From positions 208,624,709 through 208,688,708 of the forward strand of contig CM057009.1 in the NCBI GenBank assembly GCA_029891345.1: a stretch of 64,000 nt of DNA, given 5' to 3'. The notes below the pieces were generated by a model. That model was not told the origin of the DNA. It searched no databases and saw only the letters and a program-made list of their open reading frames with translations. Position numbers and translations under genes: made by a program. The DNA comes from Dryococelus australis. Lineage: Eukaryota; Arthropoda; Insecta; Phasmatodea; Phasmatidae. This document shows, piece after piece, positions 4,685 through 64,000 of this stretch; position 1 is the stretch's first letter; every line of letters starts with the position of its first letter.

Positions 4685-5141
4685 TTCCTACATATTGAAG
4701 GTATGAACTTTACCCAATTAAATTTTGAGCACGAAACTTACCCTACTGTAGCTTTATTCGCCTGGAAATATAATTGAACATCGGAAATATAACACGGAAG
4801 AATGCCTCTTCAAAATATCACTCCGAGTAAAATGATGTCAGCAAAATTTGCACTGAAATATCATACTTGAAGTTTTCATCCTGCAGGCAGTTGCTTCATG
4901 TTGTTGCAAATTGCGCAAAGCTGTAAACACTTTACCACAGAAGCGACAAAAGAGGTCCATAATTAGTACTTTACGTCTCTACTGTTCCAAGTCTACAATG
5001 ATACTGAAACAAAAATGTATTAAAGGAGCCAATTGATAAGTTTTTAGGTCAGTCAGAGCAATATTTTGAAGAGGCAAGACCATAGTTGGAAGCGGGATCG
5101 TCGATATGCTGATCAATGATCTACAGCTAAGAGCTGTACAT

Positions 5142-5454
5142 TACCGGATACAATTTCTGTGGGCCGTGAACGAAGCTAGCTAAAAGGCTGGCACACTGTG
5201 AGACGGGCATCAACACACTGGACGAAGCGTGCAAGCAACATAACATCGTTCACTCCCTGAACAAATATCTGGACACCATACACCAGGCAGACAAGAAGCT
5301 TGTACAAAAATCCGACGAGATAAGAAAATCGTCAGATGCTGGACTCCGATAAAAAATAGCCGCTTGGGGCGTTTCTAACGTGACGAAAGCCAAGGAAGAT
5401 AGGCATGGGTGCAAAGAGCAAGTGGACGGCATAAGTGAAATGAAACCTTATTGA
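5142..5454 (+). pseudogene. Polinton phospholipase A2-like protein, decayed
   Basis: The plus frame shows GYNFCGP (calcium-loop-like), then an in-frame TGA at 5167-5169, then TGINTLDEACKQHN with the C-x3-H-[DN] arrangement of the active-site helix, then an alpha-helical tail broken by TAA at 5350. PLA2-like domains of this type occur in parvovirus VP1 and in Polinton/adintovirus-like elements, where they are thought to help the particle cross membranes. The same motif order appears in the second Polinton at 54265. The base usually giving Asp after the catalytic His reads Asn here. It lies just upstream of the hydrophobic and protease relics on the same strand. Confidence 0.6.
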
Positions 5455-5700
5455 AAAGGGAAGAAAAGTGTGCAAGACCAAGAAAATATCTATGGGCGGA
5501 TTTTCCACCACGTTTGCCTGCACTCGTGGTCCTCGGGGGCCTAACGGTACCACGAGCGACATCGTCTGAGATGTCAACACAGCATCGAACGGAAGTAGTT
5601 GACCGATTCCTAAAGGCACAATGCAAATATGGAAGCTATCACCATAGGCAAAAAAAAACTTTTAAGACCTCTACATAAGGCCATATTCAGTAGGAAGTGG
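5451..5700 (+). pseudogene. Small hydrophobic capsid-associated protein remnant (possible)
   Basis: A 75-codon frame has basic ends around a short hydrophobic, glycine-containing stretch (LPALVVLGGLT). In the better preserved Polinton on the right, a small protein with a glycine-rich hydrophobic segment lies in the same place, between PLA2 and protease. Position and composition are the main evidence; sequence similarity is weak. It may instead be decayed spacer. Confidence 0.3.
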
Positions 5701-5733
5701 TGTGCAAAAGCGATGCAGCAGTGAGAGGAGATA

Positions 5734-6057
5734 ATGAAATCTCTACCGAAACGACCATTTACGAACATGGATATGGAAATGTTTGCATACAGATGTGTCG
5801 AATGTGCCAAATGTGACGAACGTGCCGTAATCAATCTGGACACGACCGCTAGGCCCACTACTCACTGGGTAACTTATGTGAAATGTGGGAAATGTGCTGA
5901 CTACTACGAACGTTTTGAAAATTTGCATCCTCCGCCCGAGCTACGACTTTACCTGAAAGATTGCAAACTGACTTACAACTACGAGATCGAGCAGATGCTG
6001 AATACACAGAACTGCAGGCACTTGTATTTTCGCTTCCTTGTTCGGTCGTTCAAGTAA
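5734..6057 (+). pseudogene. Adenain-like cysteine protease of an old Polinton
   Basis: A 107-codon frame carries the hallmarks of the adenovirus-type protease of Polintons, which matures capsid proteins. THWVTY contains the catalytic His. A segment around LHPPPELRLYL follows the position of the acidic residue. NTQNCRHLYF contains the nucleophile Cys, but the usual Gly after it is Arg and the second Cys is Tyr. The segment corresponding to YFDSFG is damaged (YYERFENL). These changes argue for a dead relic although the frame is open. The gene order PLA2, hydrophobic, protease matches the second Polinton at 54.2-55.3 kb. Confidence 0.62.
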
Positions 6058-13270: not shown

Positions 13271-14999
13271 TTTACAATGGCTGAGCTAAGCAAGAGCTGT
13301 CACTATCACATTCACTAAATATTTCTTGCTCGCTGCAGCTGTCATGGTGTGAATTTTTTTCGCTTTCATCATCTGTGTCGTCACTGTCCAGTTTGATTAA
13401 GAATTCATCTACTGCTAACTCAATGAGGCAGTCGTTCTTCCAGTACTCTTCTTCAATTCCTTCAACGTGTTTGCAATATCCCAATCAGTCTTCCTTTGTT
13501 ACGGCTTCTATGGCTTCTGTTGTTAACCTCTGTAAGACTTGCAGTGATAAATCTCCAGTCGTGTCGTGAGCTCTGATATTACGTTTAATCTTAGCCCAGG
13601 CTAGTTCTATGGCATTGAAATCGCACATATAAGGGGGCAATCTAAATACAGTATGGCCATGTTGCTGGAATACCCTGTCAACAGCGAATATTTTCTCTCT
13701 TGGTTGATGGTTTTCAAGCAATTCAATGAGAGTAGCTTCTCTCATTGTTTCGTCGCAAGAGATCCCTTTTCCCTGTAGCCACGCCACGATTTCTTTCTTT
13801 GCGTCATATTTTGACGGTGGCCTTCTTACTTTCTTCGAATGATATGGTGCATTGTCCATAACTATCACGGACTTTGGTGGCAGATTTGGTAAAACTTGCT
13901 GCGAAAACCACTTCTCAAAATTCAGGGCATTCATCTGCCCGTGATAATCACCTGTCGGCGAATTTGCCTTGTATATGAACAGCCCACTCGGAAGGAAGCC
14001 TTCTTGCGACCCGATGTGCACAACAATAAGTCTGTTTGCTGCATTACCACTTTCTACTAATCCTTCAATGTCACCTTTCTTTTGCCAGCACTTCTTAAAT
14101 GTCAAATTAGTGCCAATCCACGTTTAGTCAATGTAAAATATGTGTCTGCATTCTCTTCTCAGCTGTTTCATTGTTGTCAAATACTTTGAACGCCACACGA
14201 CGATATCAGCTCTTTCAACACTAAACACCCATTTCTTTTGTGATCTTTTCCACAAGAAACCAATGTCTTTGAGCAGTCTTCGTAGAGACGACTAACTCCA
14301 ATTCCACCCAATCTTTTCCCGCAGAATCGGCATACGTTTGCCTACAGTTGGTACGATATTCTTGACAACATAAAAGTCTCTAATAGTGTCCCTTATCACA
14401 TGCCTGTCAAAGCTATCGATAACAATTTTCGTAGTTTTTTTGGGCTGAAATGGCAGAAAAATATATACATAAACTTCTTTTTATGCACTTTTTTAAGGTT
14501 TACTACACACAATATAAACATATAAATATATACCGGTAATGCACGTCCCAATGTTTCTGGACAGTAAGTAAATGAAAGAATGAACGAATTTGACTTATCT
14601 CTGAATATATTCTCTTTGAAATACTCGAATTTATTACTATATTTCTTTGTTTAATATATGTAAAAGTTGTTCATGGTAAAGTGAGCACTTTTGAGGCCCT
14701 AGTAACTTTTTGCTTTCAGCCATCTTTTATCCCATAACCACATTTCTAAATAAATATTGCCTGTTGAGTAATAAACAGTGTGTGTAAATTCCACTGCACT
14801 CGGAAGTTTACGTCTAATGCTAAAATAAATAACATTTTTTTACCCTTATTCCAGATGAGAGTGATTTACCATGAACAGCATATAAAACAAAATATCGAAG
14901 GCCTTTTCTTTAAATAATATGCTTTAAGTTAAATTTCGATGTGCGCTTATAACAACACAAACTGTATATGTAAAAGTACCAAAAAATTATTTTTTTTCG

Positions 15000-21258: not shown

Positions 21259-23881
21259 GGGTAAGGAAAGTTATTATCGCGATATAGTTATTACCGTGAT
21301 AAAAGTTTAGCGAGCCACCGCGACTTTGCCTGCCCACGAAATCTAGTTCACCATATAGCCGATATATAGCAAACAATGTATTCTTTGCAACTGGGCTGTA
21401 ACCTACACCACAGAAGCTCCCTAGAAAGTGGCAAATAAATGGTCTCTAATCAGCAGATTGTTTCGCATCATTTACTGAAATAACGTAAGTATAAAGATAT
21501 AGTGTTGTTTTAAAATATTTAGTAATTAAATAATGGTGTTTTTTCTACTTGTTTCGAATTTTTTGTTTTGTTAAGAGCTTGCAAGGTTAAAATTAAGGAT
21601 TTGAAGATTACTTCTGTACAAAAATAATTGAAATATTTTATTTAATAACGTGTTTTGAAAGAAAAAATAATTTGTTGTTTCACAACACTTGAGGTGTACA
21701 GTTTAATGTATTTACTATTTCCCTGTAAAACCCGTAGCTATAAATTATCCCGACATTACCTGTCTACTTTGTTGAAAATGTCACGATATTAGCTAGTTAT
21801 TGTTTTAGATCATGTGATTCGCGATCAGCATGAATTGTTGTCTAATATATTCTGTTTATTTGGTTTTCAGGCCTATTCTGCAGCATGTCTCCTACTAAGG
21901 ACACGAACGAGGAGCTCGGAAAGGGACAACTTGGTGGTGTTAAATGCAAGAAACATATTGAAAAGGCAAAAACCAAATGTCGTTTTCAGTATGAATGCAA
22001 AGCATTGGTTGCAGCTGCAAGTAAGGTAAGGCGGCAAAATATCTCTTTATATAAAGTATCCAAAGAGTTTTATGTCCCATGGTCCATTCTGAAAGATTTT
22101 CGGGCCAAAATGATGATATATAGGATTTACATACACCCAAATTGGGCCACCCATTTTCCTTGGCAGCTGAGGTAGAGCAACGTGATTATCACAACATAAT
22201 TTAGATGCAGGAATTAGGCTTTGGTCTTATGGTTTGGCAAGTGCGAAAATTGGCTTATGACTTGGCCAAAGCACTGGAAGGGAAAAATACTTCAATCCAG
22301 AAAAAGGAACAGCTAGCAAATGTTGGTTGTCTCGATTTAAGACTCCTTACACTTTAACACTGAGAACAACAGAAAACCTTTCTGCTTATCGAGCATCCAT
22401 GGCCAATCCCACAATGATTAGGGACTATTTCTACAAATTAGACGCCCTCTTGAAAAAATTGGGAATTAAAGACAAACCTTGCCGAATATTGAATGTGGAT
22501 GAAACCGTCATGTCATGTGTGGTCAAAGCTGGCAAAGTTGTATCAAAGATTGGTAAATGCTTTGTTTACAAATGAACATATGAAGATAATAGAGACACTC
22601 ACACCTTATTTGGCTGTGCATGTGCTGAGTGTTCATTTTTACCGCCTTTTGTAATCTTCAAAGGTATAAGGTGGAATTATGATCTGACTACAGGTTCTTT
22701 GCCTGATTCAAAAACAAAATTATCACCCAAAGGGTGAATAAATACTGACTTTTTTTTGGAATGGTTTAAGTTTTTCATTGACAGTGTTCCTGCTGCAAGA
22801 CCGATAGTTTTACTTCTTGACTCTCACAGCTCACACATCACTCCTGAAGTTTTAAATATTGCTCGGAGAAGAGCCATTTATTTATTTACTTTCCCTGCTC
22901 ATATTTCTCATTTGTTACAACCATTGGGCATTGGAGTGTACAGGTCTCTTAAGAGTAATTGGAACAAGGAACTAAATGTGTACATGTTGCAAAATGCATT
23001 GGAGAAGCCAAACAGATATGACTTTTACAAAATAATTAATCCTGCTTTCTTGAACAGTTTCACCTGTATGCACATCAAAAATTTATTCAGAAAAGCAGGA
23101 GCATGTTCACTGAACTATAATGCTGTTTCAAGTGAAGCTCTCTCACCTTCTAAACTAACAGACACAATACTAGGAGTCCCTGAATCATCGCCTCAACAGC
23201 TTAGTGTTTTACACGATGGAAACTCCCCATGCACAAAGGAGATGTTTGTTTAAGAAAGAGTGGACAGTATTCTCAAGACTCCCTCAGCTCAGAGAACAAG
23301 ACCAGCACGCAAGAGGAAAGCCGATTTTCAGCAAAATGCTTAATGCCACCTGAAGAAATAGGTGCTGGCCCCTCAACACATAAAGACAGTGATGGTGACG
23401 ACTGGGTGTGTGAACATTGTCATGGAAAGTACTCGACAGATGTCAAAAAACGTTCAGGAGATGCTTGGATTCAGTGTTCTTTTTGTCTAACACCATACCG
23501 TGTACGTTGTCAAAACAGTCCAACAGATGATTATGTATATATGTGTGACAACTGTGCTGAAGATGAATCAGTGTGTGAAAAAGATTAGCTGGGTATAATA
23601 CGAGAAGCAATGTAGGTTCTACTGAGCTTCTTTTGTATCACAATATTAGCTACCTACTATCACAATATTAGCTACCCTATCATGGTATTACCTGTCCATG
23701 TTGTAGTGATTTAAAATGTTTTTATTAGTTACTCTTTTCAATATAACAACTCACTATGCTCTGTAAAATGTGTAGAAAGTATCAAATATTGATATCTAGA
23801 ATTTTGTTTTGGTTCAATGTACTTCATAAATATTTTGTATATATTTTCATAAGAATGTTACCATAATACCTTTACTTGCCC
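21259..23881 (+). mobile_element. Complete Tigger/pogo-type transposon with TA target duplication
   Basis: Its ends are defined by comparison with the uninterrupted copy at 19872. There the sequence reads ACACTTATCT; here ACACTTA is followed by GGGTAAGGAAAG, and TATCTTAAG resumes at 23882. The duplicated TA is at 21257-21258 and 23882-23883. The terminal inverted repeats pair imperfectly over about 20 bases (GGGTAAGGAAAGTTATTAT with the inverse of ATAATACCTTTACTTGCCC). Length is 2,623 bp, within the usual Tigger range, and it carries one decayed transposase gene. Confidence 0.85.
21885..23588 (+). pseudogene. Tigger-type transposase with C-terminal PHD-like finger, decayed
   Basis: The frame starts MSPTKDTNEELG and has a pipsqueak-like helix-turn-helix (ISLYKVSKEFYVPWSILKDF). 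It then breaks near 22175 and resumes at 22327 and 22756. The DDE_1 core shows the first Asp (ILNVDET) and second Asp (LLLDSHSSHIT). The third position in HLLQPLGIGVYRSLK is Gly where the family has Asp, so this copy should be inactive. The last part (23229-23588, in another frame) encodes a cysteine-rich finger: DDWVCEHCHG, WIQCSFC, CDNC, with PHD/zf-like C-x2-C spacing. The finger also occurs in the relative at 28 kb, so it is a family trait. The promoter and start were not determined. Confidence 0.8.
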
Positions 23882-38159: not shown

Positions 38160-40038
38160 TTAGGTTCTCATGTACCAATATTTCCTGTGCAAATAGTTAA
38201 TTCTTTTTTTGTGATACTTTGCAAAGCAGTTTTTTGTTTCATTCATGCAAAGTCCAAAATCACAATTTTCACAGCTCCATTTTGTTCTATGGGGTTGTGC
38301 TGCCGAACTGAATAAAGCACACCTGCGAGATGTACCTTTTACAGGTAAATGAGAAGCCTTGTCCAAACGCCTTTCAAGGGGAACATAAGGCTTGAAGGAA
38401 CATTGCTTCTTCACAGGCGTTTTAGTGCTTCGTGGAGAAGATTTTGATGCCCCTATAAGACCTGCAGTGACTGCAAGACGAAACTCCTTCAAGAATATTG
38501 ACCTTCTCTCACTTCTTTCCTGAAATAGAAATAATGAATTTACTACCGCTACATCCAAGAAGTGCCACATTATACGGACCCATCATTTCTTGCTTTTTCT
38601 TTCAATTTCATGTCTGCCTTGTCAACATCTCCCATATTGGCATTATAATCTTTTGCAATATGTGGGCATGGAATTTTCATCACTGATCCATAATTGGTTT
38701 TCCTTCCTACAGTGGAAACATCAATATCATGGCAATTTTACAAAAACAAAATGTATTTCTCGTCCTTCCACTGCAATGAAACAATCCCATCTTGGGAACA
38801 CCGAAACTGGAACTCTCCTTTCTTCATTTTTTTGTCAGAAACAAAATCTTTCAGCATTCCCACATGTCTTTGGTGTACTGTCCCACATGTATAAACCTGA
38901 TGTTGCAGCAGATACTTGAAAAGTGGCAATGAGTAAAAATAATTATCAAAAAACACCTGATGGTTTTTCCCTTGCAGGTTTTTAGCCAATACTTTTACTG
39001 CTCTTGCTGCCAAATTCTTTTCAGCTGTGTCTGCTACCCTCTCTGTGTATACCTGAAATTGGGATATGTAGCCATTTTCATAGGCACATGCCCACACTTT
39101 GTAACCCTGTTTAGTATGCTTGAGGGGTATGTATTGCTTCAAAGAATATCTGCATTTGAATTTGATCATCAATTCGTCTAAAGACTGCTTCTGAGAAGGT
39201 TTGTAAGATTGGCCAAATGTCTAGGATAGTCTATCCAGTAGTGGGCACACTTTGTATTATTTGTCGTACTTATCATGTCCTTTTATTTTGGTTGATGGTC
39301 ATTATCATTCAAAGGCATGTGACTTAGTATCCATGAAAATCTGTTACGCGACATCACAGAAGAATTATACATGTCTCCCATTGCAGGGTTAGATGACCAA
39401 TAGTCATTGTAGCCTGGCATTTTCTTTATCCCCATGATGAGGTTGATGGCAAGAAACTATTCTAGTTCTTCAACTCTTGTGTGTTGAAAATTGATTGAAT
39501 ACCCCATCCCCTCACACACTTTCTGCATGGCATACAGATTAGTCTGAAAAGAAACATTTTCTAAAAGATCCACAGGGAAAATTTGCAGGAACAGTTCTAC
39601 TGGGTTATCACAATCGTCTGGAAATTACAGAACCAACATCGCAAGTAAAATTTCTTATGCTATTGAATAATGGATATTGTTCCCAGGTAACAGATTCTTA
39701 CCCGAACACAGTGGCACTTGTCCTTCCATATCAATACACTGAATATCACCAACAACATCCTACACTATGGGTGCTGACACTTCAGGCTCAGGATCATCAT
39801 CTTCCTCTATCAGGGATGGGAGCTCGGGCTGGCTATCGTGGCCTTCACTCACACTTTCACAATCACTTCCCGATGAACACGGCTCATTTTCACTAAGGAT
39901 TTGGTCAAGTTCACAATCGCTGAAAGTTTTTTTGTGTGGTAACAATAGGCTACATGCCGATGGAGCTACATTTGATTTTAGGTGTTGTTCCTTTGCTTTC
40001 CTTGGATGATCTAAGATTTGTAAAGTCCTTGATGGCAT
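38160..40038 (-). pseudogene. PiggyBac transposase (DDE_Tnp_1_7), several frame breaks
   Basis: The minus-strand start at 40038 (MPSRTLQILDHPRK) leads into an acidic N-terminal region (40038-39760). The core follows at 39620-38540 across stops. It includes QSLDELMIKFKCRYS with the first Asp near 39185, FFDNYFYSLPL near 38935 with the second, and FLDVAVVNSLFLFQE near 38555 with the third. The C-terminus has a Cys-rich finger (KWSCENCDFGLCM, 38285-38235), as in full-length family members. Stops near 39460 and 39280 and shifts near 38740 mean this copy cannot make full protein. The catalytic acids are all kept, so decay is probably recent. In this family the enzyme cuts at TTAA and excises precisely. 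Confidence 0.8.
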
Positions 40039-49390: not shown

Positions 49391-50190
49391 AACAACTGTT
49401 GGACGAGCATCGGGACGTTTTTGCCGCCCATTATGCCTTGCGTCGCACCACTGCCACAGAACATGACATCCCGTTCGATAAAGAAGGGCCTATCTGCACT
49501 TCGCTGCGGAGTTATTTGCGACACCAGGCAAAAATAATCCACCAGAAAATCCAGAAAATGTTGGGAGAAGGCATAATCGTACCAACAAATAGCCAGTACA
49601 AGACGGCAATAACACTAGCCCCAAAGAAAGATGGTACCTGGAGGTTCTGCGTGGAATTCAGGCAGCTTAGTCAGGAGATGAGTAATGCACTCCCGCCATA
49701 CAACAGCGTGAATGATGCACTCAGTTCACTTGGCTGAGCCAAAATCCTCACATCACTGGACTTGAAAAGTGGGTATTGGCAAGTCCTCGTAAAATTAGCG
49801 AACTGTCATAAAACAGCATTTACGGCCCCAGACGGGCGTCGGTTTCTATTTTGTGCGATGCCATTTGTACTTAAATGTGCCCCGGCAACTTTCCTGTCAA
49901 TGATGGTCAGAATACTGGACGGCCTCATCGGAGAGTATACACTTGCATACCTAGACGACATAATTGTATGGTCGACCAGCTGGGAACAGCATTTGAAACA
50001 CCTGTCTGTTGTGTTGGAAGTACTGGCCATAAATGGGGTAACCTGTGCAATGGGGAAATATTACACAAGGAAAACCAGCCTCGATATCCAGGGACATGTT
50101 GTGAATGAAACAGGAAACAAGCCAAACCCGGAACAACTCTGGTTAATAGCGCACCCGAAAACCACTACGAAATTTTTTTGGGTTGATTAA
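49390..50190 (+). pseudogene. Gypsy reverse transcriptase
   Basis: Frames 49399-49737 and 49762-50190 cover the fingers and palm: HDIPF, then KKDGTWRFCVEFRQL, LTSLDLKSGYWQV with a catalytic Asp, and LAYLDDIIVWS with the YxDD box near 49945. A TGA at 49735-49737 separates the two parts in the middle of the domain. It would copy element RNA into DNA. The catalytic residues are kept. Confidence 0.85.
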
Positions 50191-51857: not shown

Positions 51858-53141
51858 TTATATATTTTCAGTAATCCTCTTTTTAAAATAATCATAAGTT
51901 AAATTCCGTTGGCTAACTAGAACAACATTACAAATCGTATGTGCTTCAACAGCTTTGTTAAAATCAACACAAATTTTTATGTTTGTTTTATCTTTAGCTA
52001 GAGTGGTTTTTTTATATGAACAATCAATTTTTGCCCCCAAAATGAACAAAAATTGGTTTTACCATCAAAGTTCACAGTAGGTTTATAATAACGTTAATTA
52101 TTTCTATAGTCGGTATATGGTTTGCTTTTTGAATTTCAAAAATCATTATAAACAGGAAACTGTTTACTACAAAGACCCTTTTCAATATCTAGATTCCAAT
52201 TTTTCTTTGGAAAGATCTCATTTCGTCCATTTTCAACATAAATATTTCTTACATTACAGTGATAAAACATATAAGCATGCACTTCCTGATTAGCGCGATT
52301 TTTTATATTAATTTGAAAGCCTACAATTACAAAATGGGGTATGGCAAATTGAAATTACTGAACTTATCTTTTATATCAAAGTTAAAAGTTGTTACTTCAG
52401 GTAATTCTTTTTCTAAAAATTGCCAATAATTAAATTTAATAGGAATTTTAGGCTATTTGTACATATTTAGTTTTATTGTAATTGCTGTGTTAGTTTCGTA
52501 TTCAACAATAGGACACATAACTTATAGTTTTTGAATATCAGTTCTACCTGGATCGGCAAAACTTGTCGGAGGTGTGACAACTTCGTCCTCATATAATATA
52601 AAAAATTGTTATCAGATGAATTACGGAAAAAAGTGAATTTATAACCACCTTTCCAGTAAACTTCAGCATTATCTCTGATAAAGCCAAACTGATATCTCAG
52701 TGGGTAAATTCATTCATTTAGTCTATCACTATGTACAGATTTTACTCGGTATTTATTATCCAAACCAGTAGCCTATAAATAATTTTGCTCACCTTGAGAT
52801 ATTAACAAAACATTCATCATTGCAGAAGTTAATCCAGGACTATCAACAGCTTCAATAATATTACCATGTTTTGAGATTTCTACTTTAGAAAACTCAAATT
52901 GGAAAAAGTTAGAACAAACATCTATATTGTCTTCTTTTTCACATTTTGCATCAGCTCCAACCTTATCTCTCTTTAGTAACATAAATTGCTCAAAAATATA
53001 AGCATCATTTGGGAAAAAAAAGCCATCTCCTATAAGAATATCAAACTCGAATCTATTATTGTAAATATTTAAATTCCCCCATGTTTGAACTGTTGGAGGA
53101 AAAGTTTGCCTCTCGAAGTTCTCAATACTTTTATAACTCAT
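51858..53141 (-). pseudogene. Probable Polinton major capsid protein (double jelly-roll), decayed
   Basis: Starting at 53141 on the minus strand, the first 122 codons read open (with NNRFEFDILIGDGFFFPND, then VEISKHGNIIEAVDSPG) before a stop at 52773. Similarity traces continue in shifting frames (YWKGGYKFTFFRNSSD near 52650) to a last open part at 52049-51858. The total of about 430 codons fits a capsid protein but is on the short side. The fold is inferred, not visible. The Trp/Gly-rich and N-terminal patterns resemble what I know of Polinton capsid genes. It diverges from the plus-strand gene at 53167 with only about 25 bases between starts. Confidence 0.5.
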
Positions 53142-54264: not shown

Positions 54265-54558
54265 ATGCACTTGCCTGGTTATAATTATTGTGGACCATTT
54301 ACAAAATTAAACGAAAGACTAGAAAGAGGAAACACAGGAATAAATAAATTATATGAAGAATGCAAATATCACGATATTGCTTATAGAGACCACAGAGATT
54401 TAGAATCTATACAAGAAGCTGATAAAATTTTACAAAAGGAAGCTAAGGAGATTATGTTAGATAAAAATACTCCAATTGGAGAAAAAATTGCTTGTGCTGC
54501 TTTTGCTTCAACTATGTTTACAAAAAGAAATTTAGGATGGATCATTAAATGTTATTAA
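54265..54558 (+). CDS. Phospholipase A2-like protein of the Polinton
   Basis: This 97-codon frame is uninterrupted. It has GYNYCGPFTKL (calcium-loop-like) and ECKYHDIAYRDH with the catalytic His-Asp pair, then a helical second half rich in Lys/Glu. PLA2-like domains in parvovirus VP1 open endosomal membranes during entry, and related domains occur in Polinton/adintovirus-type elements. That role is inferred here. The same motifs appear in the relic at 5142-5454. It is followed by the hydrophobic protein and protease on the same strand. The start at 54265 is the only Met before the motif. Confidence 0.65.
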   Translation: MHLPGYNYCGPFTKLNERLERGNTGINKLYEECKYHDIAYRDHRDLESIQEADKILQKEAKEIMLDKNTPIGEKIACAAFASTMFTKRNLGWIIKCY

Positions 54559-54949: not shown

Positions 54950-55350
54950 ATTGAAAAATATGTTAAAATATTAAATATAAAATTGTCAGAAATATTTATA
55001 TAATTGATGAATTACCAAAAAATATGCACAAAAATGAATGTGCTGTAGTACATTTTGACATTAAAAATCCCGGAACTCATTGGGTTTGCTACTTTAAAGA
55101 AAACAACAATGTTTACTATTTTGATTCATTTGGAGGCAATATTCGTAGTAATCGAATTAATTATTTCAAAAATAGCAATTTTTATTACAATGATGATCTA
55201 ATTCAGAATTTTAATTCAGTTATCTGTGGACATCTATGTTTAATAGTTTTACATCTTTTTTCGAAAGATTTTAAGTTTAACTATATACTTTCTTTGTTAT
55301 TAAATTATGGATATATTCGGAAAACCATTAATCAAATCATTAAATGAATA
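54950..55350 (+). CDS. Adenain-like cysteine protease of the Polinton
   Basis: The open frame 55024-55347, extended upstream in the same frame to about 54985 (IYIIDELPKN), encodes a C48/C5-type protease that would mature capsid proteins. Seen motifs are PGTHWVCYFK with the catalytic His, YYFDSFGG with the acidic residue, QNFNSVICGHLCLIV with an oxyanion Gln and the nucleophile Cys. All catalytic residues are intact, and the domain's key half is unbroken. The C-terminus overlaps the start of the fibre-like gene by about 40 bases in another frame. Confidence 0.75.
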
Positions 55351-56309
55351 CATTGACAATTTTTCTGAAGATTTAAAAACATACATAGATTCAAAATGCA
55401 ATTCGAGTGTTTCTACTTTACAGAGTAAATTAAGCACTTGTTTTGATTTAACAAAATCTTATATTTCTTTTTTAGGACATAGGCTTGTTAATATAGGTGA
55501 ACCTGTAGATAATAAAGATGCAGTCAATAAAATATATTTCGAAATATATGTAGCAGATTATGCTTTAAAAAAGGATGTCGATTCGAAAAATAAAACTATT
55601 GTTTCTGATCATGCTTTAAAAGAAGATACAAATTTACAATTCTGTAACACTATTGTTGATTGTATAAAACGAATAAATAATGCAAAGCAGGCACCAAAAA
55701 ATGAAGTAGATTCAAAATATAAAACAATTGTTTCTGACAAGGCATTAAAAAAAATGTAGATTCAATAAACAATTTCATTGTTTATGATTTAAAACATGTA
55801 GAATCGCAATAGAATATCATTGTTCCCGCTTTACAAGATCAACTTAGCAAAGTTTTTGTTTATACAACAGAGTATATTTCTCTTCAAAATCGTAGAATTA
55901 ATAGTATGGCTGATCCTGTAGATGGAAAAGATGCCGTAAATAAGAGCTATTTCGATAAAGAAATAGCTGATAAATTGCAAAATTTTAACAAATCAGTGTT
56001 GAATTATTGTGATACACTCGTTAACTTGGAAGTTGAAGAAAATATCATATATATTTATTTACCTGCAAAGAGAAATAAAAAAAATTGAATTTTTTTTTCA
56101 TTTAGAAGATCTATTTTTATTACTGTTTATAAAATAATTTAGGATAATTTACCTGATGATACTCGTTAACTGTTTTAAGGATTAGAAAAAAACATAGTAA
56201 TCCATTTGATGTTAAAAGATGAGATAAATTGGTTTTTAAAATAAAAAAATCTGAACATTCTGATACGTTTATGACTATAATAGGAATATTCGTGAAATAT
56301 AAAGATTAA
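55307..56309 (+). pseudogene. Fibre-like protein with repeated DAVNK-Y units
   Basis: The first part (55307-55759) is open. It is helical and contains RLVNIGEPVDNKDAVNKIYF, then repeats with KKDVDSKNKTIVSDHALKED and EVDSKYKTIVSDKALKK. After stops, a second part (55906-56088, extended upstream) has RINSMADPVDGKDAVNKSYF. The P-x-D-x-x-DAVNK-x-Y unit is typical of shaft regions of trimeric phage and virus fibres. Further coding traces (IKKSEHSDTFMTIIGIF, about 56240-56305) may be a C-terminal head. The role, a spike or receptor-binding fibre, is inferred from repeats and position after the protease. Confidence 0.5.
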
Positions 56310-56333
56310 CTATATATATTTTTTCACTATTCA

Positions 56334-56465
56334 ATGGAACACACTTGGTGTTTGAAGTGCAAGAAAGTCACTAAAAATAATAATATAAAAACTGACAATA
56401 CTGAAAATGGGCGATTAGTTCAGAAAAGTAAATGTTCTATTTACAATTCTAATAAATCAACATAA
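56334..56465 (+). CDS. Small zinc-ribbon-like protein
   Basis: A 43-codon frame starts MEHTWCLKCKKVTKNNNIK and ends with SKCSIYNSNKST. It has one C-x2-C pair and a second half-pair in which the last Cys is Tyr. A small zinc-ribbon protein directly before the integrase is common in Polintons. It may bind nucleic acid. The lost Cys suggests decay. Confidence 0.4.
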   Translation: MEHTWCLKCKKVTKNNNIKTDNTENGRLVQKSKCSIYNSNKST

Positions 56466-56469
56466 AAAA

Positions 56470-57410
56470 AAACTTAATGTAAGAGAAGGCCTAATCAATG
56501 AACTATATAAACCTGCACAAAAAAAAATCCCCAAAATGAAAGTAATATCATATGGAATCGATGATTTATGGTAAATTTATATTGTTGAAATGGATACTGG
56601 CAATTTGAAAGGCATATCACATATAAAGAATAAAGAATGGATATAACTCTATTATGACAATTATCAATGTACTTTCAAAGTTTGTATTTGCTGTAGCTAT
56701 TAAAGATAAAACAGCTAAAAACATAGCAATTGCTTTATAATCTAAATTGAAGTAAAGCAAGCCACATAATTTACAAAGCGACAATGTGTTCAGAATTTTA
56801 TAGTAAATAATTTAAAGAACTTGCAAAAATTTAAAATCAGTCATTATTCTACATTCAGTGTACTAAAAGCCAGTGTTGTAGAAATATTTAATCGAACAAT
56901 GAAGAATAAAATGTGGAAGAAATTTGCTTTGAATGGCAATTACAAATGGACAAAAATATTAGATAATTTAGTCAAAGAATATAATACAAAGCATAGTACT
57001 ATAGGTATAAAACCAACTGACGTTAATAAGGCCAACAAAAAATATTTAATGCAAACAAATTTTGTAGAAACAATTACTAAACCGAAATACAAAGTTGGCG
57101 ATGTTGTCCGTGTCAGCGAACTTAAATGAATGTGTAATAAAGGATATACTGGAATTGGACCACAGAATTATTTACTATTGTTAAAGTGTTAAATTATTAT
57201 ATACCAACTTACAAGCTGAAAGACACAAAAGGAGAAGAAAGAATGGGTTGATTTTATGAATATGAAATTATGAAAACTGACTATCCAAATTAATATTTGG
57301 TTGAAAAAGTCTTAAAAATTAAGGATAATAAAATTTATGTAAAATGGTAGGGGTTTCGATAACTCTTGTCTCTCTTGGATTAGTAAAACAGATGTTTTGT
57401 AAATTTAAAA
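56470..57410 (+). pseudogene. Polinton integrase (rve core plus chromodomain), broken
   Basis: Coding traces begin at 56475 (LNVREGLINELYKPAQKK). The first catalytic-Asp region near 56570 is damaged by a TAA (GIDDLW then stop). LQSDNVF near 56777 keeps the second Asp, and SVVEIFNRTMKNKMWKK (56875-56930) keeps the Glu in the long open frame 56821-57129. Downstream are an SH3-like region (YKVGDVVRVSELK) and, at 57292-57400, a chromodomain trace (YLVEKVLKIKDNKIYVKW). The enzyme would insert element DNA into host chromosomes, and the chromodomain may steer target choice. Several stops make it inactive. Confidence 0.8.
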
Positions 57411-57459: not shown

Positions 57460-58338
57460 ATCAATTGATGTTGAGTATAATTATTGCCAAAAATATAAAA
57501 ATAGTTGCGAAAACACTCAATGTGGCCATTCAATGTTTCTTTCATTCTTTGATATAAATTTACAGAATCTGGAGTTTAATTAAATCTCAATAGTTCTTTG
57601 CAATTTGGATGTCTATCTTAATTTTATACAATTGACTTTAAACATATTTCCTTTGAGTTCTTATGACATGGTAATTATATTCAAAATCATCACCAAATAA
57701 TTTTAAAAGAACATAATTTGGTTTTAAATTTTGTGTTTGTGTTACAACATGAGGAGACACTTATCTGATTTTGTCATTTCTGCGATTTATTAAATCGACG
57801 CCATATTGACAGATTCTCATAAATTTTCTATACATTCATGTTTAGTTTTATTTATATCTTTTAAATGATTAACTTGAATTTCGTTCATTTTTCTTATATG
57901 ATTAACTTTATGTACGTTCATTTTTATATGCTTTATTTGGCCTTTGTATAAATGCATTACATCTTTTTGAATCTTATATTCACCATGTTTTCTAATTGGT
58001 GGTAAAACTTCTTAAGTTACCCATTTAGTAATTTTTTCAGATAGAGTCATGCTTGATCTAAATATTACTTTATACAGCGCTGATTCATTGATAAATAAAG
58101 CATTTGGTTGCATATTTGAAGGTGTCCCTTCAGCAGTGGCACCTTTGAGTTCAGTAAATTTATTTTTATCATCATTATCAACAATATAATATAAAGCATT
58201 TCTTTGTTTTCTGTATTACAAAAGTGTAGTTTCATTAGTTCCTCTAAACCAAGGATTACTTTCCTCATAAATAAGCATAAAAACTTGACTACCTTTGTAA
58301 ATGAGTTTGTTATTATTTATGTCTAGAATTGACTCCAT
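57460..58338 (-). pseudogene. BRO-family protein (Bro-N domain), cargo of the Polinton
   Basis: Starting at 58338 on the minus strand (MESILDINNNKLIYKGSQV), the frame shows the Bro-N pattern: ESNPWFRG, a TAA at 58216-58218, RNALYYIVDNDDKNKF, NALFINESALYKVIFRSSM, WVT, a TAA at 58012-58014, then EVLPPIRKHGEY. Later traces (FEYNYHVIRTQRKYV near 57680) look like a second conserved region found at the C-terminus of insect-virus BRO proteins. BRO proteins bind DNA and occur in baculoviruses, entomopoxviruses, other insect large DNA viruses and phages. Two clean nonsense codons in an otherwise well-kept first half indicate fairly recent loss. It is tail-to-tail with the integrase. Confidence 0.75.
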
Positions 58339-58609
58339 TTTTAATATGCGAAATTATACACAAGTGAATTTGGCGAGTTATATTGTCTTTCTATTAATTT
58401 TCTTTTTATAAAGAAAATAATATTAAATAATATAGACCAAAATCATTGAATTATGTAGCTCTTAAAGAGTTAAATTTTCTAAGTCATTAATTATACGTTT
58501 CATTTTGTTTATAATTTCTTTATAATATTCACATGTTATACCAAACAATGAAAGGCAATTGTTACCAATTCTAATCCGTTTCTTTGTACATTAACTATAT
58601 TCACTAACA

Positions 58610-59931
58610 GTATCATTAGTGAACAAAATAATAATAAGCAATTTGTATATCCAAATAGACTATCGTATTTGGTAAATAAGAAAATTTATCTCTAAATTGA
58701 CTCTCTTTTATCTGGAAATGACATTGGTCTATTTCAGCATAATACAACTTTTCATAAAAGATGAAAGTTTTACCTGAATATGAATTAAAAACAGCAATTA
58801 TTTTATAATTATCACCTATTCCAATCGAAGAAAATCCTTTCGGATATCCATTAACAAGTTTATATGTAGGGTAATTAAACATATACATTTTACTATCTAC
58901 AAACAGAAATAACTCACCTGATGGTCTTTGATATATAAAAAGTTATTGAAATCGCTTGGTAAAACTGAAACTTTTTTTTATCAAAATTGGCATATTGATT
59001 ATTTTGTTGTTATTAGACTTTTTGTCCAAACATTTTTATTGTAAAAAATATACAATTTATTATCAATAATTAAATTAGTTTTTATATGTCTGTCTTTGCA
59101 TATAGCAATTGGTTCATTGCCATTAAAATTATTTTGTTAGGATGGTCCATAAAAGTTTTGAATGCTTTGGATGTCATCTAGTTGCAGATCAAACAAATCA
59201 TTGTTAAGAATGGAATACATGACCCCATTTTTATAACTTATATGTTGAAGACCTAATGCATGGCCGATTTTGTTTATCAAAACTGTTAATAAATTAACTT
59301 TATTTCCAGGAGAGTTTTTTCTATCATCATACCAGTGTTTCTGATCATTGATATTAATTTCAACAAGACTGTTTTGCTGATTTGGAAAAAAATTCATGTG
59401 CTAGTGCACTACCATGTGGATATAATCTAGTTTGACAAAACCCAGATAATTTATGATATTTATGTTGACCTTCTTTGTATGATATAATAATGTATAGAAA
59501 TTTTGTATCATAAACAAATTTCAAATTTGTGTGTTTTTGTCAAATGCCTAAAGCCTCATCAGCTAACTTAGTAATTGATTTATTTGCATATGCATAATTA
59601 TATTTTAATGGGTTGTTTAGTCCATTTTGTGGTTAATGAAATGTCAACATGTATCTCATCTTTTACACCACATCTTGGTTTGTTGATTGAACTAAGCGTT
59701 CCTTTATTCAGTTTACCCTCAACTGAAGAAGTGTTATGATATTCTTTAAATATTCTTAAAGAACTTTAGAACTTTCAAATTTTTCTTTGTAAATTTTTGA
59801 AAGTGAATTTGAATCACCTCTAGATATCGATATTTATTTAAAAAATTGATAGCACATTCTGTCTGATTCTCTTTACTGGACACTGCAAAATTTATATTTG
59901 TGATAGCAAGAATAATTATATAAATCTTCAT
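58610..59931 (-). pseudogene. Matrix metalloproteinase with hemopexin domain, cargo of the Polinton
   Basis: The start at 59931 gives a signal-peptide-like N-terminus (MKIYIIILAITNINFAVSS). A peptidoglycan-binding-like propeptide follows (INFLNKYRYLEV). At 59678-59658, in a shifted frame, lies the cysteine switch PRCGVKD. The catalytic domain continues through ITKLADEALGI and ISYKEGQHKY, then the open frame 59397-59137 (WYDDRKN, INKIGHALGLQH, GVMYSI Met-turn, DDIQSIQNFYG). The zinc site keeps two His, but the first His is Asn and the catalytic Glu is Lys. Hemopexin-like repeats follow (NKLYIFYNKNVW; 58910-58616 with FLFVDSKMYMF and GYPKGFSSIG). About 440 codons match a full host-type MMP. MMPs cut extracellular matrix outside the cell. 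Stops and shifts break this copy. Confidence 0.85.
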
Positions 59932-60009
59932 TTATATACAAAAAGGTTAAAAATTAAATATAATCCTTAATTTTATTTCAATAATTTTCTTCTTTTATTT
60001 TCCTAATAA

Positions 60010-60539
60010 AATCTAAATAAAGCCAAAATATTCATCGCAACATTTTGCACAAATCTCTTTAAAATATGCATAAAAAAGTTGTATTTATCTCTTGTCAATT
60101 GTTTTGGTACTTTTGAATAAGTTTGAGCTAAATAAAAAATCTAAATTTTCATTTCTTCCTCTACTAAAACAATCGCGAACTATGTCTTGATTGTCTAAAA
60201 TAACATAGTCGAATTCAATTAGAGATTCGTCTTCACACTGATCTAATGGGACCATTTTATCAGTATTATTAAACAAATATACCATTTTTCTTTAACTTTA
60301 AGCTTTTGGTTAGAATATTAAATTTATTTTGTAACTCAGTATATTTTGAACAAACATACAATTTATTAAAAATTATCCATCCAATATTACATATAAAATT
60401 AATCATCCAATTAGTTTTTCAAATTGCTTGTACATACTATTATAACCCTTGTATTATCAGGCAATAATTGGCCATTCTTTCTAATTTTGGAATGATCTCC
60501 ATGAATTAAAGCACCGACACCCCATTTAACTTTCTTCAT
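60010..60539 (-). pseudogene. Polinton packaging ATPase (FtsK/HerA type), Walker A degraded
   Basis: The start at 60539 (MKKVKWGVGALIHGDHSK) leads to RVIIVCTSNLKN near 60430, the P-loop position, in which the Gly-x4-Gly-Lys-Thr/Ser signature is lost. After shifts, the open frame 60285-60085 has SLIEFDYVILDNQDIVRDCF (Walker B-like, with the second acidic residue replaced) and FSRGRNENLDFLFSSN (sensor region). Traces of the C-terminus continue to about 60010 (FKEICAKCCDEYFGF). The family pumps DNA into capsids. Loss of Walker A means inactivity. Its start is only about 25 bases from the start of the plus-strand gene at 60564. Confidence 0.65.
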
Positions 60540-60563
60540 TTAATAAGATAATTTTTGTAATAA

Positions 60564-61269
60564 ATGTATAATAAGGTACTTAAATTAACAAATAATGATT
60601 CTATTAAAAATAGTAATGATAACATCCATAATGAAAAATCGATTGCTTTGGTTAGTTTTCATACAAAATTTTTATCTCCAAATATAAATTATAATACTAT
60701 AATGACAAATGAACACATGATTCCTAATGTTGATTAAAATGAAGTTACAACTGTTTCTAGAGGTCAATACAATATTGAATTGTTAAAGGAAACTATAAAC
60801 TTAATTGATCCATTATCAACAAATAACATTGATTCAACAGCAGATCATGTAAAAAAATTGAATATCTATGAAATCAAAGTTTGATATTAAATTTGTCGAT
60901 CAACTATCTGATATCCTTGGTTTTAAAAGAAATATTACTATTGGAAAAGACAAAGTTGTTGTAGGTATTAAATCACATAATTTTAAACTATTTAAAACAA
61001 TAAATGTTCACTGTATCTTAGCATATGATATGTTTATCAAATATGATGAATCTAATCATTTAGAAACAGATATAATTGCTAGTTTTCCACCAAAAACTAT
61101 GTTTGGTTTTGAAGATTATATTAGCTATTCGCCAACATATCAATTTTCTTATCAAATTAATAATGAGCAGTTTAATCACATTGTTTTTTAATTGAGGGAT
61201 GGAAATGGTAAACTGACTGATTTTGATGGTGCCGACATCGACATTGTTTTAGAAATTATAGATTTATAA
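60564..61269 (+). pseudogene. Penton/minor capsid protein candidate of the Polinton
   Basis: A frame from 60564 (MYNKVLKLTNNDSIKNSN) has a TAA near 60735, then VTTVSRGQYNIELLKETI, and shifts by one base near 60860 into the open frame 60868-61191 (FDIKFVDQLSDILGF, NVHCILAYDMFIKYD). After TAA at 61189-61191 it continues in frame with GNGKLTDFDGADIDIVLEI to 61269. The pattern resembles the Polinton protein taken as the penton (single jelly-roll) capsid component; the fold itself is not visible. Its 3' end overlaps the PolB 3' end on the other strand. Confidence 0.5.
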
Positions 61270-64000
61270 TGTTCTCTGTTTCGATAACCATATGGCACTG
61301 TGTCTATTTTATTTTCTAGTATAATTCTCTTGCCATAAGGACGGAATGCCATTTTATTACCTTCTACTGAATATATTTTATGCTTTTCACTTCTTATTAA
61401 ATTCATTGTTCTATACTCCATTCTTTCATAAACCAAGCAATTCTTATAATCGTAAGAAATAATTCACTTGTTAGAAACACATTTCTTTACACCTTTAGAT
61501 TTTTTGTTTTCTTTATCATCAACTAAATCTATATGCATACATTTTTGCTCTTAAACCAACAAATTATTTTATTATTTTGACATTACAGCAGTCTTTTATT
61601 TTTTCTAAAACTTTTATTTATTTGAGGCATGTTATATATATTATCATTTGAATAATCACTTGTATCAAATTTTTCTATCGTTGTTTTCATATCTTCATAA
61701 GAATGTTATATTATATATATATATATCTTTATCTTGATAACATAAATCAATTTCATCTCCATATTTTGGTTTTATAACTTCACAATGGAACTCGTACATC
61801 AATTCTTTTGATATATCTAAGATTGACATGCCAACATAAATAGGCTTATTAAATTTTTAATTAATTTTATTCATATTTATAGCTGCAGGGTTTTCATTAA
61901 ATAGAGTACTTTTCTTAAAATTTGGTTTTGCAATTAATTTTTTTCATTTTTTTTCATTTGCTATCAGTGTTATATCCACTGTTTCTTATATTTTCCATAG
62001 TTTTGTCGAACACAGAATTATGCATGAGCTTATGAAAATCTTTTGCGTAGTTGTTTTTAGCATTATATCTCATCTCTTTATTTAAATAGATATATTTCTT
62101 CAACCAATCAGACTTATTAAACTTCAACATTCTATGTCTTTTAGTAAGTTTTAATCCATTTCTGCAGGCATTGTTTTAAATAAAGATAGTGTATTACATA
62201 GTAGTTTCTTAGGATATTTCAAATCAACTTCGAAAATGTAACCATGTGGCAAATCATCATCAAATTTAATAATATTCATTGTAAAAATGAAGTGCTGTAT
62301 AATTATCCTATTCGAAACCACCATATCGTAAAAATTGTGGTATTGCCCAACCATATAAATTATTAGCATCAAGATATGCTAAATAGTTGGACTCCTGATT
62401 AGAGTCCAATAATATTAATATTCATTATTTGCTTTAACATATCATTTACAGCATGCGATATTCCACCTCTAATTTCCTTTCCTATCATTAAAATCATATC
62501 AGAATTGTGTAATAAATCTAATGGTTGTTTAGTCATTTTTAACATTGCATCCCAAGATAATCCTGGTGCTGACAAATACTACGATGGATCTAAATTGTAT
62601 GCATTTATGCATGTATTTCTAAAGTTTTCAAATATATCTGCTAACAGTAATACATTACTTTTTAAATATAAATGTTCATATTCACCAAGATTCTTAATAT
62701 TAAATTGATTACATGCAAGCTTTGCAAGATCATAATCATCGTAAGTTATATCAGATTCATTTAGTTTATTATAAAATTCACTTTTTGGTGGAAGATCGAT
62801 TTTGCTCAATTTTTCCCAACTATCCATATAATCGAATCGATAAGCACCCTTTCTCATAACTAAATTACTTTATCTTTAAGAAAATGTTTTTTTTTTGTGT
62901 GTATCATTTTATTTTTACTTAAATTCGGCGATAATTTACCTAAACTACTGGCCATAAATTTAAATTCGTCTATAACTTTCATTTTTAAATTTTCTGTTTC
63001 TTTCCCAAAAGTAATAAACTTTTCTTCATTACTTGGAACTAAATCTATATTTTTTTCATCATAAATAAAGTTCTTAAATAAATGATGATCATCCCCAGCT
63101 AACTCATGGAAATAAATTAGTACAAAGTTGTGTAATTTTAATTGTAGAGTACAATTATTACATAAAGGATTAATAAATTTTCCACTTACGTGATCATGAT
63201 GGTGTACATTTTTATTCGCTTCTTTATTTGCGCATTTGCATAGAGTTCATTTTTTTATTTACTATATAACACTTTTCTTCTTTTGTTAGCGGATGCATTG
63301 GTTCAATTTGTAAATATATTTCCCCAATTTCTTCTACTTCCCTTTTAAATGATTGTATAAAAATTTAATGAGCATTTGGACCTGGATATAGAATTGGTGG
63401 CTTATAATCACCATAACTAGATACAATATAATAACAAAAACCAGATGCTTCGTGTAATTGATATTTCATAGTATATGATTCATTGTTTAACTTTAAATCA
63501 ATGTTATTTATTTGATAATTGGTAAGACTGTATATTTCTTTAAGTATCTCCTTATAAAGGTCATTATCGATATCATCTTCTGTTAAAACAGAGAATTTTT
63601 GGGTTAATTTAAATTTATGTGTTTCTCTTAGATTTTGCTTAACTGTTAATATTTTCTTTAGAATTGACTCAAAATCGGCATATATTGCAAAAGGAACCTT
63701 CATTGTTTGTTTATAATTTCTGAAAAACATTTTCTTTCCTTTCGAGGGTAAAATATAACAAGACTGCTTCATTTTTAGAGCAGTCTTCTGTATGTTTATT
63801 TAATTTTTTCTTGCGAATAAAAGAATCGAAGACACGTATCACATATATAAGTTTTACCATGCTTATTATTTTTTTGCATTGAAATCAGTTCGATAAGTCT
63901 ATAATCCAACAGTAATGTGAATTATCACCTTCTTTGAAATAAAGTAAATTTATATGTTTATCCTTTAATTTTTCGCAAGTTTGAGTGGATATACCATGGA
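61190..64000 (-). pseudogene. Polinton DNA polymerase B (protein-primed type), broken, 5' part outside window
   Basis: Read right to left: a C-x2-C finger (YICDTCLRFFYSQEK near 63840), then the open part 63772-63365 with VPFAIYADFESIL (exonuclease motif). Next is 62857-62579 with DYMDSWEKLSKIDLPPKSEF and YLKSNVLLLADIFENF. LDANNLYGWAI near 62350 is polymerase motif A. The C-motif region near 61740 reads YQDKD. The C-terminal region (61436-61260) has YRTMNLIRSEKHKIYSVEG. This is the DNA_pol_B_2 type, which replicates linear DNA with a protein primer. Stops and frameshifts lie between all these pieces. The gene enters from beyond the right edge of the window. Confidence 0.85.

Follow-up and report, generated by a model that had tools for sequence, protein, structure and literature searches.

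The matrix metalloproteinase gene

A decayed matrix metalloproteinase (MMP) gene lies on the minus strand between positions 59931 and 58619 of the window, the whole stretch of 64,000 nucleotides of Dryococelus australis DNA that was analysed. The gene is read from eight open pieces in three frames (in order, frames 0, 1, 2, 2, 0, 0, 2 and 2). Neighbouring pieces share 17 to 38 bases or sit one stop codon apart, and the tiling used has four changes of frame and three in-frame stops that break the gene. The MMP locus is a pseudogene. Intron-size gaps are absent from the tiling, which bears out the preliminary description of the locus as free of visible introns; the host-type introns that it had named as grounds for abandoning its interpretation were not found. 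A host gene with introns was ruled out by the gapless tiling of the pieces.

The order of the pieces follows the order of domains in an MMP. The gene begins with an ATG at 59931 and a hydrophobic stretch (59931-59749, frame 0), which was judged by eye to be signal-like and matched no Pfam family. The cysteine switch of the propeptide, KPRCGVKD (KPRCGVKDE), is carried by the next piece (59765-59601, frame 1). This piece had no credible Pfam match, and all five of its matches in PDB (E≤10) were to pro-MMPs, the best with E=0.011. Two pieces in frame 2, 59632-59543 and 59539-59363, were placed by eye at the start of the catalytic domain; neither matched a Pfam family and the second had no PDB match. 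The matrixin catalytic domain continues with its second half at 59400-59140 in frame 0 (PF00413, E=1e-14, profile positions 78-159 of 159). Searches of PDB with this catalytic piece returned 81 distinct sequences at E≤0.001, the best MMP among them being MMP-16 (2.5e-7), and the 60 of the 81 that were listed comprised 58 named MMPs and two entries for karilysin, a bacterial protease.

The piece at 59136-59002 (frame 0) matched no Pfam family, and none of its three PDB matches was an MMP. The first hemopexin blade was expected in this stretch, where Pfam and PDB searches gave no MMP or hemopexin match. The following piece, 59035-58946 (frame 2), was placed by the tiling. Hemopexin blades were recognized in the last piece, 58942-58619 (frame 2; PF00045, E=1.6e-5), for which all six PDB matches at E≤0.1 were MMP chains (best gelatinase A, 4.2e-4). 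The hemopexin domain was recovered in part, as one significant Pfam stretch. Counted from the coordinates of the pieces, about 133 codons lie between the switch Cys and the position where the first zinc His would stand; in MMP-3 this distance is about 126.

The zinc site of this copy reads NKIGHALGLQH and departs from the consensus HExxHxxGxxH in that the first His is replaced by N and the Glu by K. The catalytic piece still has the other two His, the Met and the DD-IQ-YG end, as seen in an alignment that includes it (A1). Since the first His and the Glu have been replaced, the copy should be inactive as a protease, given the known role of these residues, and because the gene is a pseudogene it is classed here as an MMP remnant and not as a working MMP. 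The preliminary description had reported an MMP of full architecture at this place and had proposed a search with MMP and hemopexin profiles. Both profiles proved significant and, together with the pro-MMP matches in PDB, confirm an MMP at this position on the minus strand. The domain order also held; the full architecture did not, as the gene is decayed, HExGH reads NKIGH and hemopexin is incomplete.

Chance matching was ruled out as the source of the MMP signal. When 120 M10 proteins, chosen (not blindly) through A1, were compared with the DNA by tblastn at E≤0.01, all 120 matched 59000-59500 on the minus strand, and the one other row of the 121 fell at 60000-60500 on the plus strand. Markov-random copies of the element (n=20) gave no tblastn rows. 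The Pfam and PDB results are independent of the way in which the proteins were chosen.

Near the end of the gene a hydrophobic stretch was seen in frame 1 (near 58685-58539) that may be a membrane anchor, although AT-rich frames often read as hydrophobic.

An AT-rich block with Polinton-like genes

The MMP gene is part of a block that is set apart by its composition. From 52001 to the end of the window, the GC content of 2-kb windows is 0.245-0.284, compared to 0.376 for positions 1-50000. The block is cut by the window end, and the right end of the element lies beyond it.

The gene adjacent to the hemopexin end of the MMP is a decayed BRO gene (57820..58353, minus strand). Bro-N matched 58015-58215 with E=2.5e-11 and the remainder was assigned by adjacency; the end piece of the gene (57820-58011) had no match. 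On the other side of the MMP are decayed pieces that resemble a packaging ATPase (60006..60418, minus strand). The label was given to 60418-60006 from motifs, which we take to be those of the FtsK/HerA type. The ATPase-like pieces that were compared gained no support from Pfam, PHROGs or NCBIfam, and a search of the viral contigs with one piece gave no relative. The MMP does lie between the two neighbours named in the preliminary description, on the strand of both; the BRO gene is supported by its profile and the ATPase is named from motifs.

Further along the minus strand, 61698..63884 is occupied by a decayed gene that resembles a protein-primed PolB. Matches to Endonuclease_7 (0.0074) and DNA_pol_B_2 (0.042) were found on 62863-63246, both below the cut-off, and profile searches with the remaining pieces were blank. 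No relative was found in the protein search with one piece or in the viral contigs with two. The gene is presumed to be PolB from gene order and motifs. At the opposite end of the block, a decayed gene resembling a double-jelly-roll (DJR) capsid gene (51861..53141, minus strand) matched PF21738 on 52139-52354 (E=1.5e-4; 21.5 bits relative to a cut-off of 27), and its other pieces had no match.

Three features lie on the plus strand between the DJR and BRO genes. The first is a phospholipase A2 (PLA2)-like gene at 54265..54558 (PF08398, E=1.2e-12). The second is an adenain-like protease frame at 55024..55347, in which we recognized what is presumably the motif of an adenovirus-type protease; it had no Pfam match, and its best PDB match was the adenoviral proteinase (E=0.021), closely followed by unrelated antibody chains, which begin at 0.027. 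The third is an integrase-like region at 56310..57126, named for a motif in the piece 56770-57126 that we take to be of the retroviral type; profile and PDB searches gave no integrase match.

Two other observations were made on this strand. DUF5679 matched 56310-56462 (E=3.7e-6, 27.4 bits relative to a cut-off of 27), adjoining the integrase-like piece. A fibre-like protein is encoded at 55304-55971, with an internal repeat of two stretches that are 42% identical, and a match to the N-terminus of a T7 tail fibre was found on 55813-56085 (E=5e-4, below cut-off). The product of 55304-55971 may be a fibre, or a protein that the element used for attachment.

None of the core Polinton genes in the block reached its curated cut-off. 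The block is nonetheless most likely a decayed Polinton/Maverick. That the MMP was carried by a Polinton, as the preliminary description had it, agrees with the Polinton-like genes of the block and with its matching composition, but is not secured by a core gene above cut-off.

Relatives and origin of the gene

Searches of the viral contigs, a collection that may include few animal Polintons, with the M10, hemopexin and PLA2 pieces gave no relative. The pattern HExGHxLGLxH was present in at least 120 stretches of these contigs, and a PRCG-like switch accompanied it in 3 of the 124 open frames with the pattern in the loci listed (L047, L073 and L110). Alignment A1 matched nine loci in the viral contigs with 27-59% identity; hemopexin was absent by eye from the open frames of eight of the nine (L127 was left out). 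When five viral matrixin frames (L047, L073, L110, L121 and L128) were compared with Pfam, all five matched M10, none matched hemopexin, and L047 and L073 also matched a peptidoglycan-binding domain. These viral matrixins have the M10 domain in common with the MMP locus, as well as the PRCG-like switch in the three frames named above, but differ from it in being without hemopexin and, in two cases, in having the peptidoglycan-binding domain. The phage collection gave no match. A protein search with the M10 piece alone also gave no match, while the search with A1 returned 589 proteins at E≤0.001 of 596 candidates. The best 120 of the 589 all contain an M10 Pfam domain and share 33-43% identity with the piece from the window.

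Metalloproteinases are known from DNA viruses of insects. The metalloproteinase of granuloviruses has a role in spread, and baculovirus MMPs have been proposed to help in crossing basement membranes. Systemic baculovirus infection has been associated with MMPs, with caspases and with a viral growth factor in work cited in PMC11865517; in its discussion, the same paper presumes that hemocytes infected with an alphabaculovirus recruit or activate MMPs and so breach the basal lamina. In the nudivirus HzNV-2, Hz2V068 is described as an MMP of 789 aa with a signal peptide, a zinc site and hemopexin repeats (PMC3280521). Compared by description, it resembles the gene reported here in being an animal-type MMP with hemopexin, and it belongs to a DNA virus of insects; it differs in its large circular virus genome, its intact zinc site and its virus lineage (PMC3280521). 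A betabaculovirus genome report lists a metalloproteinase among the genes found only in betabaculoviruses (PMC3496565); by description this too is a gene of an insect DNA virus, but of a different virus class.

Vertebrate Mavericks and insect-associated adintoviruses are described as having PolB, ATPase (FtsK), capsid, protease and integrase genes (PMC8097293, PMC8363768), and accessory genes are also described in the former (PMC8097293). The terms metalloprotein-, metalloprotease and hemopexin are absent from the main texts of both (PMC8097293, PMC8363768) and have no occurrences in a further adintovirus paper (PMC11071296). An MMP in a Polinton, Maverick or adintovirus was not found in the open-licence PMC literature, judged in part from listings. 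Both insect-virus MMPs and Maverick accessory genes are already known; their combination, seen here in one dead copy, is new as far as this literature goes.

In our view the locus is probably what is left of a Polinton/Maverick-type element with a secreted MMP gene of its own, represented here by a single dead copy. The MMP domains are in the right order without an intron-size gap, the neighbours are BRO and PLA2-like genes together with a DJR match below cut-off and faint traces of PolB and adenain, and the GC content at third codon positions (GC3) is like that of the block. Against this, there is one dead copy, no MMP relative in a Polinton was found in the viral contigs checked, and the zinc site has lost its first His and Glu, which leaves any activity of the ancestor presumptive.

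The total GC of the MMP (0.265) is inside the range of its neighbours (0.230-0.292). Its GC3 is 78/370 (0.211; five pieces), compared to 163/848 (0.192) for eight further block pieces (p=0.48), with the catalytic piece having the highest value among the block pieces compared (0.29). The GC3 of the MMP is lower than the overall GC of window positions 1-50000 (p=1e-11), although that value, 0.376, was taken from all bases of this stretch and not from host genes, and leaves room for an AT-rich host gene. None of 487 windows of equal size in 1-50000 was as AT-rich as the MMP (minimum 0.301), and the GC3 of three other transposon frames in the window was 0.42-0.48. Its agreement in GC3 with the block, and its lower value than elsewhere in the window, favour a long-standing element gene over a host retrocopy.

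The main rival is that a host MMP message was retrocopied into an integrated, dying Polinton and was never an element gene, which we regard as unlikely. Such a copy would fit the missing introns and the lack of an MMP in a Polinton among the viral contigs, and a reverse transcriptase (RVT_1) remnant is nearby (49738-50187, plus strand, E=3.8e-16). A retrocopy would, however, have needed an AT content as high as that of the element from the outset, and would drift toward the higher GC seen elsewhere in the window, whereas the GC3 is as low as that of the block. The ATG of the MMP is 74 bases past the last ATPase-like open piece, on the same strand, which also speaks against a retrocopy. No run of A or T of 8 or more marks the end of the MMP (57501-60600 contains one such run, a T8 within the gene). 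Direct repeats shared by the flanks that were compared reach at most 10 bases, the longest being a low-complexity 10-mer.

We give little credence to a second alternative, that the block was left by some other DNA virus (e.g. a nudivirus-like or other insect virus) with BRO and MMP genes. BRO genes occur in baculoviruses, and the ATPase, integrase and PolB labels in the block are weak. MMP genes are also present in HzNV-2 (PMC3280521) and betabaculoviruses (PMC3496565). The traces of DJR and PolB argue against such a source, as does the adenain-like frame; together they are Polinton features that nudiviruses and baculoviruses are not known to have. That a decayed host MMP gene had Polinton fragments inserted around it, or was joined to them by assembly, is very improbable: the one point in its favour is that the window has several other mobile elements, while the pieces leave no intron-size gap, the composition is the same as that of the flanking genes and the MMP is tightly packed between the ATPase-like and BRO pieces.

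If the element did carry the gene, an ancestor of the element would have captured an animal MMP message as cDNA and held it as a coding gene until its third codon positions were as AT-rich as the element, which would then have integrated here and decayed. Secretion as a zymogen is the most likely fate of the intact enzyme, which would then have cut the extracellular matrix around infected cells. By analogy with baculovirus MMPs, this might have eased the passage of virions or infected cells through basement membranes. That there was an animal Polinton lineage with a functional secreted MMP as a standing gene, opening basement membranes outside the cell, is a real possibility that we put forward tentatively.

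It is still debated if animal Polintons are only transposons or are infectious viruses too. According to PMC8097293, particles of animal Polintons had not been observed. A secreted enzyme that degrades matrix makes little sense for a nuclear transposon, and it suits a virus that travels from one tissue to another. If the element maintained an MMP as one of its genes, this would point indirectly to a phase of Polinton life outside the cell, and would add to the MMPs known from granuloviruses and nudiviruses. A functional, standing MMP in a Polinton lineage would indicate that these elements once passed among tissues as infectious viruses, and may represent a capture independent of those in granuloviruses and nudiviruses.

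Other features of the window

Three transposon remnants were found outside the block, in addition to the reverse transcriptase remnant: DDE_3 (13485-14123, minus strand), DDE_1 (22738-23250, plus strand) and DDE_Tnp_1_7 (38738-39220, minus strand), the last of which we take to be of the piggyBac type. No tRNA was found within the window, and no host genes were recognized in it on unsystematic inspection.

A second, more decayed PLA2-like stretch is present at 5131-5388 on the plus strand; it shares 41% identity with its counterpart at 54.3 kb (E=2e-16 by tblastn). It is followed on the same strand by a frame (5725-6054) for which Pfam and PDB gave nothing credible and which reads by eye like an adenain-type protease. 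The stretch 5131-6054 is possibly a second Polinton remnant in the window.
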